Assembly: GCA_028707875.1 (NCBI GenBank)
Contig: JAQWAC010000004.1
Coordinates: 1 to 53,166, forward strand
Direction of reading: 5' to 3'
Origin: Candidatus Peribacteraceae bacterium
GTDB lineage: Bacteria; Patescibacteriota; Gracilibacteria; Peribacterales; Peribacteraceae
Length of the DNA: 53,166 bases
A program made the translations under genes and the position numbers. Numbering within the stretch: position 1 is the first letter of the stretch; each line of letters starts with the position of its first letter. Below are positions 30,312-36,315 of this stretch, piece after piece. The notes beneath the pieces are model-generated. The model saw only the letters and a list, made by a program, of their open reading frames with translations, did no database searches and was not told where the DNA came from.

Positions 30312-30374
30312 GGATGACCAGTATGTCAAGAATAGTAAACATACGCAATGGTTTACAGCTTCCTAAAATATTCC

Positions 30375-30472
30375 GCGGCGAAGCGCGGGTCTCGCGGGTT
30401 CCCGCGCTGGAGCCGCACCTTTCAGGGAAAAGATGGCTCGTGGAAGAAAAACCGCAGGTTTGTCTTTCACGA
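30375..30472 (+). repeat. Structured intergenic repeat, copy C
   Basis: gcgg-CGAAG-cgcggg..cccgcg-cTGGAG-ccgc ... ctCGTGgaagaaaaaCCgcaGGtttgtctttCACG; aligns with copies A and B by structure. Confidence 0.65.
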
Positions 30473-30473
30473 T

Positions 30474-30505
30474 TAAAAAGACCCCATCCTTCGCGGATAG
30501 GGTCT
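30474..30505 (-). terminator. Rho-independent terminator for the 30550-31671 gene
   Basis: Minus strand AAGACCCTATCCGCGAAGGATGGGGTCTTTTT: stem plus T run. Confidence 0.75.
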
Positions 30506-30549
30506 TGGCGTGCTTTCTCACGCGGCAGGTTTTGAATCAATAAGCGAAC

Positions 30550-31671
30550 TCAAGCTCCGAGCTTGAGCTCCCACGTAGATGTGTCGTCGATGCGTTCCCA
30601 GCGCGCATCGGCTTTCTCGGGCTTCACACCCAGAAGTTCCGCCAACCGAAGGAGGGCGGGCGTGAGCTTCTCGGGGAAGCCAGCGTCATAGAAGGTGACC
30701 CGGAGGGCATCCTTCCCAATTTGGAGGGCCACCACGCGACCCGTCAAGTCGGTGAGAACCGTCGGTTCCACCGAGCAAGCCGAGTAGCTGAGGTGCCGAC
30801 CCATGACGCGCGGGTTGAAAACCGCGCCCCACTGGTGAACTTCCGCTCCGGGCTTCTCATGGGGCGGTGGCATGAGAATCCCGTTTCCGAACTCCCCGTT
30901 CGGAACGTAATAATCATGGCCGCCTGCCACGAGGACCTGGATGAGTGCCCCGGAGAATTCCGAATGGCGCTCATTGGGGTTGAATCCTTTGCAGTTGGCA
31001 GCGTAACCATGCTGCCCACTGCCCAGGACTTCGACGAGACGGAGCGCGAGGATGGCCCCCTCCACCATGGGCACCTTCACGGCGACCTCTTTGACTTTCC
31101 CGACGAGGCTGTCGTTGAGACGGTGCCCCATCGTGTCGAGCCATCGCAGCTCGCGATGGTCGATCCGAAGGTACTCCTCGTAGGAAACCTCGGAACGGTC
31201 CCGCTGCTTGCAGTAGATCTCACGGTGCTTCGCGAAGAATGCAGCGACCCGCCGCTGGTATTCCTCGCGGGAAGGAAGGGGCTCATCCTTGAAGGTGATT
31301 CCTCGGTCACGCAAACCGGGGACGATCTCGAGAAGCTCCGGGTGGAACTTCCCTCTGCCCTCGCTGCGGCTATCGCGCAAGTCCGGACGAACCTGCTCGG
31401 TAGCGGATCTCAGCATGTCCCGGGCCAGTGTGCTGAGCGAGCCAAGCGGTCGCTTGCCCGCCACGAACTCCCGCACCTCCGAGAGGAGCTCCTGCTTCCG
31501 AACTTCCATCTCGGCCTGGGCCTTGGCAATCTGGGCATCACGCTGCCACTTCTCCTTGAAGTGGCTCTCATACGCGCCCCACCAGACGCATCCGGCAAGG
31601 GCGACGAGCAAGACACCGAAGATGGCCAGAATGGACCACTCTTCCCTGAAGAACGAAACCACACGCTTCAT
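30550..31671 (-). CDS. Hypothetical membrane-anchored protein
   Basis: MKRVVSFFREEWSILAIFGVLLVALAGCVWWGAYE TM anchor followed by coiled-coil-like KAQAEMEVRKQELLSEVRE. Confidence 0.55.
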   Translation of the reverse strand: MKRVVSFFREEWSILAIFGVLLVALAGCVWWGAYESHFKEKWQRDAQIAKAQAEMEVRKQELLSEVREFVAGKRPLGSLSTLARDMLRSATEQVRPDLRDSRSEGRGKFHPELLEIVPGLRDRGITFKDEPLPSREEYQRRVAAFFAKHREIYCKQRDRSEVSYEEYLRIDHRELRWLDTMGHRLNDSLVGKVKEVAVKVPMVEGAILALRLVEVLGSGQHGYAANCKGFNPNERHSEFSGALIQVLVAGGHDYYVPNGEFGNGILMPPPHEKPGAEVHQWGAVFNPRVMGRHLSYSACSVEPTVLTDLTGRVVALQIGKDALRVTFYDAGFPEKLTPALLRLAELLGVKPEKADARWERIDDTSTWELKLGA

Positions 31672-31863
31672 GACACGACTCCTTGTAAAACTACCTGCCG
31701 ACGATGTGAAGAAACACTCTTGGGAGCCAAAGAAAGGCACTTTCCCAAGTTAATGAAAAATACAATATTATTCATGTTTTGTCAATGACCACTGACTTCA
31801 GGAAATGCATTCCATTGCCATTTCTCTTAATTCCACGTCCTCCACCCCCATAGATGAAATGGT

Positions 31864-32640
31864 ATGCTCCCCTCCGTGCTCTCTCCGTTGATCTCCATCA
31901 TCGTGCCGGTCTTCAATGAGGCGGAGAGTCTCCCGCTCCTCTGCAAAGAAATCGTCGGGGTGATGGGAACACGCTCTTTCGAAGTGATTGTGGTCGATGA
32001 CGGGAGCACAGATGCAACCGCACGCGTCATTACGGAACTCTGCACATCGGATACGCGCATCCTCGGCTTCAGGATGAACAAGAACACGGGGAAAGGCGGA
32101 GCACTCTCCGTCGGCATGCAGCACGCACGTGGCGACCCCCTCATCACCATTGACGGCGACCTGCAGAATGACCCGAAAGATATTCCCCTGCTCCTCGCCG
32201 CACTCGCCGGAGGCGCGGACGTGGCACTCGGCTGGCGACAGGAGCGGGCGGACACGTCCGGCAAGCGCTGGGCATCCGCTCTTTTCAATACTCTCTGCTC
32301 CTTCACCTTCGGAAAGAAACTCCATGATGCAAATACGGGCTTCAAGGCACTGAGACGCCGGGCCGCAGGGAGCCTGCCGATTTCCGGGAGCCTGTTCCGC
32401 TTCCTTCCGCATCTCCTCGCCAAAAAAGGATGGTCCGTCGTCGAGGTTCCCGTGCACCATCACCCGAGAAAATTCGGTCAAACGAAATTCTCCCTCTCTC
32501 ATCGTCTCCGTGGCCTGCCGGATCTTCTTCTGGCCCTCACCGTCGCGCGGAGCGGCATCGAGACCGTCCTGCCGCCCTATCAACGACTCTCGCCGAAGGT
32601 ATCTCCCCTGCCGGAGCGTTCTGGTATGATTCGGGCATGA
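31864..32640 (+). CDS. Glycosyltransferase family 2 (DPM1-like)
   Basis: LISIIVPVFNEAESLPLLCKE, EVIVVDDGSTDATARV, LITIDGDLQNDPKDIP. Confidence 0.92.
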   Translation: MLPSVLSPLISIIVPVFNEAESLPLLCKEIVGVMGTRSFEVIVVDDGSTDATARVITELCTSDTRILGFRMNKNTGKGGALSVGMQHARGDPLITIDGDLQNDPKDIPLLLAALAGGADVALGWRQERADTSGKRWASALFNTLCSFTFGKKLHDANTGFKALRRRAAGSLPISGSLFRFLPHLLAKKGWSVVEVPVHHHPRKFGQTKFSLSHRLRGLPDLLLALTVARSGIETVLPPYQRLSPKVSPLPERSGMIRA

Positions 32641-33605
32641 TTTCCACCGACATCATCCGCCCCTTCCTCTTGACCGCACTCGAGGCGACAGATTTCAAGG
32701 GGCTCGGGGAAAAGTACAGCGGCAAGGTCCGCGATGTGTACACGCAGAAAGCGGCCAAGCGCGCGATCCTCATCGCCACAGACCGCCAGTCCGCCTTCGA
32801 TATTAAGTGGTGCACGATCCCGCTCAAGGGACAGGCTCTGAACCAGATCAGTGCGTGGTGGTTCGAGAAGATCAAAGGTGTCATGCCGACGCACGTGATC
32901 GACGTGCCGGATCCCAACGCCATGGTGGTGAAAGATCTCACGATGCTCCGCGTGGAGATCGTCGTCCGCGGCTACCTCACGGGATCCACGGGGACATCGG
33001 CGTGGGTGAATTACAACAAGGGCGTGCGGAACTTCTGTGGCAACGTGCTGCCGGAAGGCATGGTAAAGAATCAGAAATTCGCCGCCCCCATCATCACTCC
33101 GACCACCAAAGGCGAGGACGACGAGCTCATCGACCCCAAAGGCATTGTCGAACACGGTTTTGCGACCAAGGCGCAGTGGGAGGAAATTTCCTCCAAGGCC
33201 ATCGAGCTCTTCGTCACGGGACAGAAAATCGCCGCGGAACGCGGGCTCATCCTCGTGGATACCAAGTATGAGATGGGCTACGACTCCGAGGGGAAACTCA
33301 CGATCGCCGATGAGGTGCACACGCCCGATTCCTCGCGCTACTGGGTGGCCGCCACCTACGAGGAACGCTTCGCAAGGAAGGACGAACCGGAGAGTCTGGA
33401 CAAGGAGTTTTTCCGCTTGTGGCTGCGATCACAGGGATTCGAGTATGGCGGAAAGCACCCGGAAATCACGGATGACGTGCGATTGATGCTCGCGAGCAAG
33501 TACATCGACCTCTACGAGCGCATCACGGGAGAAATGTTCGTGCTCCCGAAGGATGCGAAGGTGGCGGAGAGGATTGAGAGGAATCTGCAGAAGTACCGGA
33601 TATAA
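32637..33605 (+). CDS. purC: Phosphoribosylaminoimidazole-succinocarboxamide synthase
   Basis: GLGEKYSGKVRDVYTQKAAKRAILIATDRQSAFD; VRGYLTGSTGTSAWVNY; ATGA overlap with upstream GT2. Confidence 0.96.
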   Translation: MISTDIIRPFLLTALEATDFKGLGEKYSGKVRDVYTQKAAKRAILIATDRQSAFDIKWCTIPLKGQALNQISAWWFEKIKGVMPTHVIDVPDPNAMVVKDLTMLRVEIVVRGYLTGSTGTSAWVNYNKGVRNFCGNVLPEGMVKNQKFAAPIITPTTKGEDDELIDPKGIVEHGFATKAQWEEISSKAIELFVTGQKIAAERGLILVDTKYEMGYDSEGKLTIADEVHTPDSSRYWVAATYEERFARKDEPESLDKEFFRLWLRSQGFEYGGKHPEITDDVRLMLASKYIDLYERITGEMFVLPKDAKVAERIERNLQKYRI

Positions 33606-33625
33606 ACCGCTGAACTTCTCATAAA

Positions 33626-33764
33626 TGCGCGAAGGCAGGCGAGTTTATCCCGAGCGTAGTCGAGGGGCCTGCCTGGAGCGCAACCTTGAAGGGAAAGAGA
33701 GCTCATGGCACGTCGTTCGCGAACGACAGTGTCATGAGAGGAAACCGACAAGGTTTCCTTTCAT
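33626..33764 (+). repeat. Structured intergenic repeat, copy A
   Basis: tgcg-CGAAG-gcaggc...gcctgc-cTGGAG-cgca; ctcatggcac-gtcgttcgcgaacgac-gtgtcatgag; aggaaacc-gacaa-ggtttcct. Confidence 0.7.
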
Positions 33765-33765
33765 A

Positions 33766-35022
33766 CTAAAAAAACACCCACAAACAAATCACCAGGTTCC
33801 ACCCGAATTGCAGCACCTCCTGCCGCCACGTCTGCTTCTCGCGAAAGAGAAGAAAGAGTGCGAGCGGAACAATCGCGTAGCGTGTCTCAATGAACCAGCT
33901 CGCGCTGAGATAGACGAACGCGAGCGGATAGAAGAAGTACATGACTGGCCGCGGGAATCGCACGGAGCTCGCCGTGAGGAGCGCAAGAGCGACGGGAACG
34001 AAGAAGACGGCCTTCCGGACCGCACCCGATTCCGCAAAGGAAAGGATCTGATTCTTCACGGATTGCAGGTTCAGATTGAGCGGATGATCCGCACGGAAAG
34101 TGCCCCAGAGGACAAGGAGCAGGAGAACGAGAAGAAGCTGCACCCGTTGCTCCCTGAGGATGTGACGCCACTGGCCCCAAGCCTGTTCAATGACGAGCGG
34201 AAAGAAGAGTGCGGAAAACAGGAGAAGAGTGAAGGAGACATTCCCCGTGAACATGCCGGGGAAGGGATGCAGATCCGACCGGTTGAGAACCGGACTCCCG
34301 TTCAGGACGATGAACACGAGAAAACCGGTGATGGGAATCACGAACGGAAGCAGTGATTTCGTGGCTTCTATGAGAGATTTTCTCCGCTTCAGGCGATCGC
34401 ATATCGTTTTCCGGAAATGTGACCTCAACTCGGAGCCGGTGAGCGCCCAGGACGGTTCGCGACTCAGAACGATGAGGGCGAGGAGCGGGACCCACACAAT
34501 GTTGTTCTGACGCACGAGAACGCCCGCGCAGGAGGAGAGAGCGGAGGAAAGCGACATGCGCCTGAACGCGAAGAAGAACGCAAGGAGCACGAAGAGAAGC
34601 GATGCGGTGTCGGTGTAGAGGAGCGGGAAGAACGGGAGGAGGATCGGTAATGTGGCGTACTGCAGCGTGCGGAGAAACGCGGTTTCATGATCGAGGGTGC
34701 GCGCCACGAGGTACGCGGCCCCGCAGGAAAGGAGGCTGATCACAAGCGTGACCAAACGGGCGGCGGCGGCGGAGCCGGTACCCGAAAGGATCAGCAGACC
34801 GCTCACAAGGTAGTGATAGCCCGGAAGCATCGCCCCGAACTTCGCCCGGGAGAACGTTCCGTTGAGAATTTCCGTGATCCGTTCAAAATGAGAAATTTCA
34901 TCGAACACAAGCGGGGAAGTCCGGACCATGGCAAACATCTGAAAGATGATTGCCAGTGTCAGTAAAGAAAGAAGTATTCCGACACTATTTCGGAAATTTC
35001 CATGGCGATTGATGGCAGGCAC
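33766..35022 (-). CDS. ALG10/DIE2-like alpha-1,2-glucosyltransferase family membrane protein
   Basis: FDEISHFERITEILNG, LPGYHYLVSGLL, LLYTDTASLLFVLLAFFFAFRRMSLSSALSSCAGVLVRQNNIVWVPLLALIVL. Confidence 0.65.
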   Translation of the reverse strand: MPAINRHGNFRNSVGILLSLLTLAIIFQMFAMVRTSPLVFDEISHFERITEILNGTFSRAKFGAMLPGYHYLVSGLLILSGTGSAAAARLVTLVISLLSCGAAYLVARTLDHETAFLRTLQYATLPILLPFFPLLYTDTASLLFVLLAFFFAFRRMSLSSALSSCAGVLVRQNNIVWVPLLALIVLSREPSWALTGSELRSHFRKTICDRLKRRKSLIEATKSLLPFVIPITGFLVFIVLNGSPVLNRSDLHPFPGMFTGNVSFTLLLFSALFFPLVIEQAWGQWRHILREQRVQLLLVLLLLVLWGTFRADHPLNLNLQSVKNQILSFAESGAVRKAVFFVPVALALLTASSVRFPRPVMYFFYPLAFVYLSASWFIETRYAIVPLALFLLFREKQTWRQEVLQFGWNLVICLWVFF

Positions 35023-35050
35023 GCAACATAGTGTAGCCGTAATAAATTAT

Positions 35051-35194
35051 CGCGCGAAGACGGGCGAGTTTATCCCGAGCGTAGTCGAGGGGCCCGCCTG
35101 GAGCGCAACCGCTCAAGGGAGGAGTGAGCTCGTGGCACGTCGTTCTCGAACGACGGTGCCGTGAGAGAGGGGCACCGCAGGTGACCCTTTCACG
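35051..35194 (+). repeat. Structured intergenic repeat, copy B
   Basis: cgcgCGAAGacgggcgagtttatcccgagcgtagtcgaggggcccgccTGGAGcgcaacc...ctcgtggcac-gtcgttctcgaacgac-gtgccgtgag...gggcaccgcaggtgaccc. Shares 28-nt runs with copy A. Confidence 0.7.
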
Positions 35195-35207: not shown

Positions 35208-35672
35208 TCACCATTGGCCAAGCGCCAGTTTCCAGTCCCGCTCAACTTGATGACGTGCAATGAACCCCGCCGGTACTTCCAGAGCGAACTTCGCCGATCC
35301 CTCGGAAAAATAGGGGGGACAGACGGGAGTGGTGCACGGCTGCATCGTGGTCATGGAAACGAATTCGCCGGTATCTTTGAAAAACAGAATATCGAGGGGA
35401 ATCAACGTATTCTTCATCCAAAAACCAAGTCTCCGGTTATCGGGGAAGGTAAAGAGCATTCCCTCATCCGGCTTCAAAGATTCTCTCCCCATCAGTCCTC
35501 TTTCCTGCGACTTGTTATCAGCGGCAATCTCGACGGAAACAGGAACCTGCAATCCCCCCGATGACACAAGATGAATGGTGACTTGCGCATCGGCTTTCTG
35601 TCCTCCTGCGGGTGAACAGGCGGCAAGCGCAAGAGCCGAAAGGAGAAGGCCGACGGGAATGAATCTCCTCAT
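35208..35672 (-). CDS. DUF192-family lipoprotein
   Basis: Lipobox LLSALALAAC; QERGLMGRESLKPDEGMLFTFPDNRRLGFWMKNTLIPLDILFF. Confidence 0.88.
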   Translation of the reverse strand: MRRFIPVGLLLSALALAACSPAGGQKADAQVTIHLVSSGGLQVPVSVEIAADNKSQERGLMGRESLKPDEGMLFTFPDNRRLGFWMKNTLIPLDILFFKDTGEFVSMTTMQPCTTPVCPPYFSEGSAKFALEVPAGFIARHQVERDWKLALGQW

Positions 35673-35673
35673 A

Positions 35674-36315
35674 TCATCCGCGGAGAGAGGCAATGGCATG
35701 TGTGCGATCTTTCGAACGGAAAATGTAACTCCCTGCGACAAGATTATCGGCGCCGGCTTTGATGCAGAGCGGTGCCGTCTTGTCGTCCACTCCTCCGTCC
35801 ATCTGAATCATAAGCTTCGGAAACCTTTTCCGTGCTTCAGTGACTTTGGGAAGAACGGATCCTATGAAGCTCTGTCCGCCGAATCCCGGATTCACGGACA
35901 TCACAAGGAGTACATCCACTCCCCCGAGAACATCGTCAACGGCCGAGAGCGGCGTGGGAGGATTGATGGCGATCCCCGCCAGCGCACCGCCTCTGTGAAT
36001 GGCTTCAATCAGGGCTCTCCGTGAATCGGTATCTTTGACCGCCTCCGCATGAAAGGTGACATTCATGGGTCGAAGGGTGAGGAACTCGCGCGCATAGGTT
36101 GCCGGATCCCGCACCATGAGGTGAATATCAAGCGGGAGCTTGGTTTTTATTGTTTGTGCCAATGAAAAAGGAAAGGCGGTGTTCGGCACGAACTTCCCGT
36201 CCATCACATCAAGCTGGAGCCAGTCCGCGGAATCTTCAATGCTCTCCACTTCCTCCTGCAAATGCGCCATATCCGCCGAGAGGATGGAAGGGGCGATGAT
36301 GATCGGGGACGGCAT
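35674..36315 (-). CDS. rpe: Ribulose-phosphate 3-epimerase
   Basis: IIIAPSILSADMAHLQEEVE, WLQLDVMDGKFVPN, VLLVMSVNPGFGGQSFI. Confidence 0.95.
   Translation of the reverse strand: MPSPIIIAPSILSADMAHLQEEVESIEDSADWLQLDVMDGKFVPNTAFPFSLAQTIKTKLPLDIHLMVRDPATYAREFLTLRPMNVTFHAEAVKDTDSRRALIEAIHRGGALAGIAINPPTPLSAVDDVLGGVDVLLVMSVNPGFGGQSFIGSVLPKVTEARKRFPKLMIQMDGGVDDKTAPLCIKAGADNLVAGSYIFRSKDRTHAIASLRG

Follow-up and report, generated by a model that had tools for sequence, protein, structure and literature searches.

The window (the whole 53,166-nucleotide stretch analysed, from contig JAQWAC010000004.1) contains three intergenic sequences, copies C, A and B, all on the forward strand. All three represent a single dispersed, non-coding element of Peribacteria, which are tiny, uncultured bacteria; it spans about 100 bases, starting at an A-rich 5' edge and ending with its last helix (P3). 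A sequence-only reading had located the three copies and described an outer helix (P1), an internal loop CGAAG...TGGAG, an inner helix (P2), a linker and a final hairpin (P3). The positions were confirmed by checking the sequence and by matches to a covariance model, and all of these parts were found in the copies. The CGAAG...TGGAG motif is present, but the loop proper is only GA / GGA, between C-G and A-T pairs.

Copy C has the canonical form (P1-P2 hairpin, linker and P3; 30371..30473, + strand; 92.7 bits and E = 1.4e-17 with covariance model R1). Its A/T-rich 5' edge is at 30364..30371, from an information profile of 197 copies. The arms of P1 (30375..30379 and 30412..30416) pair with each other, as indicated by the sequence and by covariation in P1. 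Between P1 and P2 is the internal loop (GA at 30380-30381 and GGA at 30409-30411), and the P2 hairpin is at 30382..30408. The linker contains a predicted third strand, l1-l8 (AAAGATGG, 30429..30436). P3 (30439..30471) has a purine arm (30439-30453), a GCA loop and a pyrimidine arm (30457-30471). If AAAGATGG is placed as a third strand against 30442-30449, then 8/8 triads are legal (see below). Copy C adjoins the T-tract of a terminator-like hairpin (30475..30506, - strand), recognised from the sequence, of the opposite-strand gene at 30550-31740.

Copy A (33622..33765, +; covariance model match 33622-33738+) has P1 at 33626-33630/33678-33682, P2 at 33633-33674, and P3 at 33733-33746/33752-33765; the predicted third strand in its linker is at about 33695-33701. 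Immediately after it is the stop codon (TAG, 33766-33768) of a DIE2/ALG10-like gene (33766..35022, -). Copy B (35047..35194, +; match 35047-35165+) has P1 at 35052-35055/35103-35106, P2 at 35058-35099, the linker at 35121-35130, and P3 at 35160-35176/35180-35194; a DUF192 gene (35208..35741, -) has its stop 13 nt beyond it. Both copies carry an insert in the P2 loop that canonical copies lack (GAGTTTATCCCGAGCGTAGTCGAGGG, 33641..33666 in A; the same in B, 35066..35091). Both also have a "middle arm", which had been read as a regular module of the element. Compared with uninterrupted copies, it is a GCAC..GTGC palindrome inserted in CATG or CGTG at the foot of P3. In copy A this hairpin (33704..33732) was inserted at CATG, with the second CATG at 33733-33736, and in copy B (35131..35159) it is flanked by two CGTG copies. 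The same insertion is found in copies L025, L034 and L217. The middle arm is a secondary insertion and not a module of the family, so copy C represents the canonical element.

A covariance model search of the rest of the genome and of relatives, which the sequence-only reading had proposed, found 76 copies in the 1.32-Mb source genome. Many relatives have 3-35 copies each, and numbers range overall from 0 to 76; within one genus, one genome has 1 copy and another has 17. Strong matches all lie within Candidatus Peribacteria(ceae), and divergent copies occur in at least 8 other families. A pattern built from the motifs matched the genome 55 times, versus 5 times for the reversed pattern. The median nearest-neighbour identity among copies is 85%, and there are no near-identical copies, so there was no recent burst. 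The element had been suspected to be new to Rfam, and indeed a scan gave no match at the gathering score, nor even at E ≤ 5; we also found no earlier description of it in Peribacteria in the open literature searched. A phage or virus origin was rejected, as the motif pattern had no match in viral contigs. The P1-P2 and P3 domains are not independent modules: they nearly always co-occur in genome G027, where apparent solo-domain matches are mostly copies that missed our strict filter.

Covariation in P1, P2 and P3 is overwhelming. In an alignment of 42 copies, 20 of the 31 pairs have two-sided changes, and there are 217 cells with two-sided changes, compared to 69 ± 10 if columns are shuffled and 5-35 if they are slid. 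The expectation that the helices change letters while keeping their pairing, and would still do so with more copies, is thus borne out against both controls. P1 arms vary freely through compensatory change, and the GA/GGA loop is invariant across the 42 copies. Upstream, an A-rich stretch is seen at -12..-8 from CGAAG (197 copies). These comparisons show that the strand as read has a P1-P2 hairpin with a GA/GGA loop and a purine/pyrimidine hairpin, P3.

The linker had been described as single-stranded-like. Instead, each position of this purine segment covaries with one in the P3 purine arm, in antiparallel order, as a third strand in the major groove of P3 would. Strong mutual information between linker and P3 is confined to one diagonal, i+j=12: mirror offset 12 scores 1.75 and every other mirror or direct offset scores at most 0.66. 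(If the linker instead paired antiparallel with P3, by strand exchange, there would be a direct-offset diagonal, which is absent.) The triads along the diagonal are of the purine-motif (reverse-Hoogsteen) type, namely G·G-C, A·A-T or T·A-T, in 1089/1128 cells. Depending on the genome set, 74-80% of copies have all eight triads legal, versus 15-24% after permutation. Four diagonal pairs were testable. Between nearest neighbours, the two positions changed together in 16/16, 16/18 and 17/19 cases for three of these and in 8/21 cases for the fourth (l2-a10); off the diagonal, the rate was at most 7/22. When b6 is T, l6 is G in 43/43 copies with a6=G and is T or A in 36/37 copies with a6=A. As l6 changes with a6 while b6 is constant, it is the purine arm, not the pyrimidine arm, that the third strand tracks. 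A third-strand T is opposite A 78 times and opposite G once. The code also holds in distant families despite their different letters. The order of the segments is third strand, purine, pyrimidine (linker-a-b; class I) in 141 distinct copies with a standard linker. A pyrimidine-motif triplex on the complementary strand, which would be compatible with RNA, fits less well (class III, 38/141, versus class I, 129/141).

We think it probable that selection maintains a purine-motif triple helix in this bacterial lineage, with divergent forms across several families of the phylum, and that it acts as a single-stranded signal recognised by its structure, in DNA or, unexpectedly, in RNA. To our knowledge, this would be the first dispersed element with a third strand supported by covariation. 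Bacterial repeats that could form triplexes have been known for decades, and we know of no evidence that triplex formation matters in cells, nor of covariation evidence for the PIT, BoxC or TM_ECO elements. Here, third strand and purine strand change together in over 100 copies, which amounts to natural mutagenesis, so the cellular use of purine-motif triplexes could be tested with a series of natural variants. The non-coding genome of the CPR bacteria has been little explored, and it gains a class of high-copy element with conserved structure.

The PIT, BoxC and TM_ECO elements (Holder et al. 2015, PMC4666352) are similar in that they are dispersed, intergenic bacterial repeats in which a single strand can form an intrastrand purine-motif triplex with the identical triad code. 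However, those elements are conserved in sequence, G/C-rich and of class II (pyrimidine-purine-third strand), whereas the Peribacteria element is class I with a mixed A/G code. Unlike theirs, its sequence changes while the triads are kept, it has a second domain (P1-P2) with an invariant loop, and it adjoins gene ends. The term covariation is absent from PMC4666352, and a stable triplex in vivo was not supported for the E. coli motifs.

On the strand as read, G.U outnumbers A.C at interior pairs by 31:11 in P2 and 102:16 in P3. Together with the asymmetry of T·A, this implies that the strand as read is the functional one, and the wobble bias in P2 and P3 speaks against the opposite-strand hairpin as the conserved structure. 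The sequence-only reading had offered a structured RNA or structured mobile DNA, and helix covariation, many copies and turnover of positions agree with that description; of the two, we favour structured DNA. G.U is just 1.5% of pairs in P1+P2 (G.U:A.C 38:18), as compared to 5.0% (60:2) in the same organisms' tRNA stems, and RNA is reportedly excluded from purine-motif triplexes (PMC4666352, citing earlier work); both point to single-stranded DNA.

If the element were instead a functional RNA of the strand as read (a small RNA, or an mRNA or intron element), then G·G-C, A·A-U and U·A-U triples would form in the major groove of P3. The excess of G.U over A.C, the RNA-like GA/GGA loop and triloop, and the single A·A-U and G·G-C triples in tRNA cores make this conceivable. 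Copies of family f82 lie in sense within ribosomal-protein operons, so that the strand is transcribed and a role as RNA is possible; other copies are within 23S rRNA group I introns or immediately upstream of tRNA or tmRNA genes. Still, we consider an RNA function doubtful. G.U is rarer than in tRNA stems, the information profile of 197 copies has no promoter-like signal upstream, and no Rfam relative was found. The gene upstream of many copies is divergent, so sense transcription is not obvious, and eight consecutive purine-motif triples are reportedly impossible in RNA (PMC4666352, citing earlier work).

The positions of the element change between genera. Only 1 of 31 positions is shared between genera, which rules out vertical conservation of positions, and there are clean empty sites (such as L176, with flanks 91/96% identical). 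In the empty-site alignments that we inspected, whose flanks are mostly too diverged, no target duplication or terminal inverted repeats were apparent. We found no Y1 transposase in genome G012 (32 copies) and one weak match in G000, and no reverse transcriptase in G000, G027 or G006. As these are missing from high-copy genomes, neither is a universal mover.

In most copies, the 3' edge of the element, at the foot of P3, is flush with the next functional unit: it is at the stop codon of an opposite gene in 88/217 copies, at a tRNA end in 25, and at an A-run (a terminator T-tract) in 34, and tmRNA ends are also used. In genome G027 this placement was found for 10/33 copies, versus 1.9% expected (P = 4e-10), and it recurs in other families. 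The 5' side is unanchored. Such close alignment with the ends of functional units poses a puzzle. Enzymatic targeting of boundaries this varied is hard to picture. As a side observation, 23/33 copies in G027 are in the lagging sense relative to the replication fork (by hand count), which follows the orientation of the neighbouring gene.

We propose, at roughly even chances and from sequence comparisons, a strand-specific, single-stranded DNA triplex element that spreads as a non-autonomous mobile repeat and comes to lie flush at functional boundaries. The strand would be exposed during replication, recombination or transcription and would fold into a class I intrastrand purine-motif triplex. 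The fold may be kept because it is the recognition target of the spreading process, presumably host or recombination machinery. Insertion at functional boundaries, or trimming up to them as far as selection allows, could give the flush 3' edge. Such an element would resemble the RAYT-mobilised REP/BIME palindromes (high-copy intergenic hairpins with strand-specific structure), but it is a two-domain unit of about 100 nt that lacks a GTAG-type tetranucleotide hairpin or a consistent Y1 (TnpA_REP) transposase. Like MITEs and BOX or RUP-type repeats it is small and non-coding, has a patchy distribution and modular inserts, and turns over in position; unlike them, it has no terminal inverted repeats seen to span it and no target duplication seen, and it conserves structure over sequence. 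Integron attC sites are also folded single strands with a stem, an unpaired spacer and a variable terminal stem, just after stop codons, but our element lacks the conserved RYYYAAC/GTTRRRY boxes, is scattered rather than arrayed, and has the extra triplex domain.

Could this instead be a boundary element, under selection where transcription units end, either because P1-P2 and a T-rich tail on the opposite strand terminate the neighbour's transcript or because folded DNA blocks polymerases? It is flush with stop codons and tRNA 3' ends, in other families too, and on the opposite strand its A-rich 5' edge would follow a GC hairpin as a T-rich tail. Triplex repeats arrest DNA polymerase in vitro (PMC4666352). 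A scan for intrinsic terminators calls one such site at copy C, but overall the scan did no better than shuffles. We think that selection as a boundary element is unlikely: the tail is only about 60% T, 34 copies lie beyond an apparent intrinsic terminator, orthologues without the element are common, and the strand-specific conservation is on the other strand. A role as + strand terminator is excluded for copies that lie in sense within essential operons and for those upstream of tRNAs, and the E. coli triplex elements have no terminator activity (PMC4666352).

Lastly, the mirror symmetry of linker and P3 might be a by-product of mutation (template switching, which can yield perfect arms with few wobble intermediates, or conversion) or might reflect double-stranded H-DNA, which a purine mirror repeat could form, with no intrastrand fold; this is highly improbable, as the restriction of third-strand T to A (78 versus 1 opposite G) is not expected from mirror copying, the arms of P3 also covary within one strand, and the triad rule is kept in other families with other letters.

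The three copies that the sequence-only reading had reported in the window lie where it placed them (copy C at 30371-30473, copy A at 33622-33765, and copy B at 35047-35194, all on the + strand), and we recovered the fold that it described. Across the genome (74 contigs, 1,323,417 bases), a motif pattern had 55 matches, versus 5 for the reversed pattern, and a covariance model of the kind that had been suggested, built from an alignment of 42 copies, found 76 copies (model E-values are rough). As had been suspected, Rfam held no match, even with E up to 5 included. Pairing is indeed kept while the helices vary: in the 42-copy alignment, 20 of the 31 pairs had both-sided changes, in 217 cells, whereas shuffling gave 69 +/- 10 and sliding the partners gave 5 to 35. 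On the comparison of these sequences, we consider it solid that this structural element is widespread, strand-specific, and composed of two domains, and that it has a predicted purine-motif triplex that is supported by covariation.

Copy C has the canonical form. From 5' to 3', this comprises an A-rich 5' edge; helix P1, with 5-6 pairs that vary freely; a GA/GGA internal loop that never varies, like the C-G, A-T, and G-C pairs that close it; a near-perfect hairpin of variable sequence (P2); a linker that contains CC....AGGGA and then the ten-base linker end; and a hairpin, P3, that has a purine arm, a pyrimidine arm, and a GYA-type loop. Relative to this canonical element, copies A and B each have two additional insertions: an identical 26-bp sequence (GAGTTTATCCCGAGCGTAGTCGAGGG) in the P2 loop (33641-33666 in A and 35066-35091 in B), and, at the foot of P3, a palindrome that interrupts the CATG/CGTG there and doubles that tetranucleotide (33704-33736 and 35131-35163). 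The palindrome had been described as the middle arm of a modular element, but because just a handful of copies carry it (L025, L034, L217, A, and B), it is not a regular module. Small palindromic repeats of other kinds nest inside the element's loops (for A and B in the P2 loop, and for copy L034 in the linker, which holds a TGAGCTTGTCGAACCA insert), and at positions 764145 and 969362 of C1 in the complete genome G027, the P3 loop is swapped for another repeat starting CCGGCTTGTCGGCCGTAGCC.

The linker had been described as single-stranded-like, but it covaries with the purine arm of P3, as its predicted third strand. Across the 141 distinct copies whose linker is standard, its positions l2-l7 and positions a5-a10 of the 5' (purine) arm covary strictly along the diagonal i+j=12. 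This is a mirror symmetry, with the linker antiparallel to the purine arm; it scores 1.75, and every other mirror or direct offset scores at most 0.66. Ordinary alternative base pairing of the linker is unable to yield a mirror diagonal. Judging from their letters (G with G in 571 cells, A with A in 440, and T with A in 78, the remainder being 39 of 1128), the combinations are the code of a predicted purine-motif triplex. All eight triads are legal in 74-80% of copies, versus 15-24% if permuted (each genome set taken separately), and copy C has 8/8 legal. Because l6 tracks a6 at constant b6=T (b being the pyrimidine arm), with l6=G in 43/43 copies with a6=G and l6=T or A in 36/37 with a6=A, the linker follows the purine arm and not the pyrimidine arm. 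If nearest-neighbor pairs differed at a P3 position, then the linker showed a legal co-change in 16/16, 16/18, and 17/19 cases at three positions and in 8/21 at the fourth diagonal position, with at most 7/22 off the diagonal. Since these pairs co-change on the diagonal, the relation reflects many independent changes.

The strand as read is the conserved strand, because interior G.U exceeds A.C (P2, 31 vs. 11; P3, 102 vs. 16) and because the class I code (third strand first, then purine, then pyrimidine) on this strand beats a class III reading of the opposite strand, 129 to 38. Single-stranded DNA is favored as the functional molecule, though not decisively, because wobble pairs are rarer in P1 and P2 (1.5%, G.U:A.C 38:18) than in the same organisms' tRNA stems (5.0%, 60:2), because no promoter-like signal was seen upstream of the element (just the A-rich edge), and because of the reported exclusion of RNA from purine-motif triplexes (Holder et al., PMC4666352, on E. 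coli intrastrand triplex repeats). The DNA reading is not decisive because family f82 has the element in sense orientation between ribosomal-protein genes and because some Peribacteria copies are located in 23S rRNA genes, within the parts that carry group I introns. The divergent f82 copies (L331, L332, L343, and L347) are between genes of the spc/alpha ribosomal-protein operon, immediately before start codons, where they could affect translation; judging only from their translated starts, we take the downstream genes to be rplF, infA, and rpoA. At L143, L170, L192, and L233, copies are within or adjoining the 23S introns, one of them near the 3' splice side. Of the original alternatives, structured RNA or structured mobile DNA, the structure stands on covariation, action at the DNA level is probable, and mobility is likely, given the turnover of positions.

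We examined placement for 217 distinct copies, with gene boundaries from our own simple gene caller; 14 overlap a called gene. Most copies sit flush against the next unit at their 3' edge. For 88 copies, this unit is a gene on the opposite strand, reached at its stop codon, in most cases 0-2 bases from where the model match ends; for 34, it is an opposite-strand terminator, reached at its A-run; and for the others, it is a tRNA, at its 3' end (15) or 5' end (10). One copy is immediately before a tmRNA gene, and 70 were assigned to none of these classes. In the window, copy A adjoins the TAG stop of the gene at 33766-35022, copy C adjoins the T-tract beyond the gene at 30550-31740, and copy B is 13 nt from the stop of a DUF192 gene. 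In G027, 10 of 33 copies have an opposite stop codon there, versus 1.9% expected (P ~4e-10). The 5' side shows no anchoring, and other families have the same flush placement. The flush edge might arise by targeted insertion, or else by polar loss of spacer that was halted by selection.

The element is likely a non-autonomous mobile repeat, whose fold would serve as its recognition signal. At the 31 anchored genes of the source genome that have a G027 orthologue, G027 has the element at one. Dozens of empty sites are visible, and some relatives have apparent decayed remnants. At the best empty site (L176), the flanks are 91 and 96% identical and the insertion is clean, including about ten A-rich bases 5' of the element. 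Within a single genus, copy number is 1 in G013 but 17 in G183, which makes these genomes a natural pair for studying gain or loss. We found no near-identical copies, and neither Y1 transposase nor reverse transcriptase goes with high copy number in the genomes examined. About 15 copies (such as L013, L033, and L054) are immediately preceded, 30-20 nt upstream, by an additional GCGAAG together with some 18 A-rich bases, and L013 has this unit two times in series; these look like 5' remnants of earlier elements that were replaced at the same site.

A pattern scan over 85,462 species genomes, which does not by itself bound the distribution, gave at least 83 stretches among the matches listed, all in Candidatus Peribacteria, Peribacteraceae, or Peregrinibacteria. 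Within the same family, 24 of 35 other genomes examined had covariance-model matches; weak matches (rough E of 1e-3 to 1e-8) occur in at least 8 further families within the class or phylum, with few distant matches. Divergent copies from other families retain the relation between P3 and linker with different letters: for example, L338, L333, L343, and L345 have 8/8 legal triads, with T opposite A only. The mean best triad score in divergent copies was 6.73, versus 6.05 with linkers swapped among loci, and the maximum over 500 swaps was 6.5.
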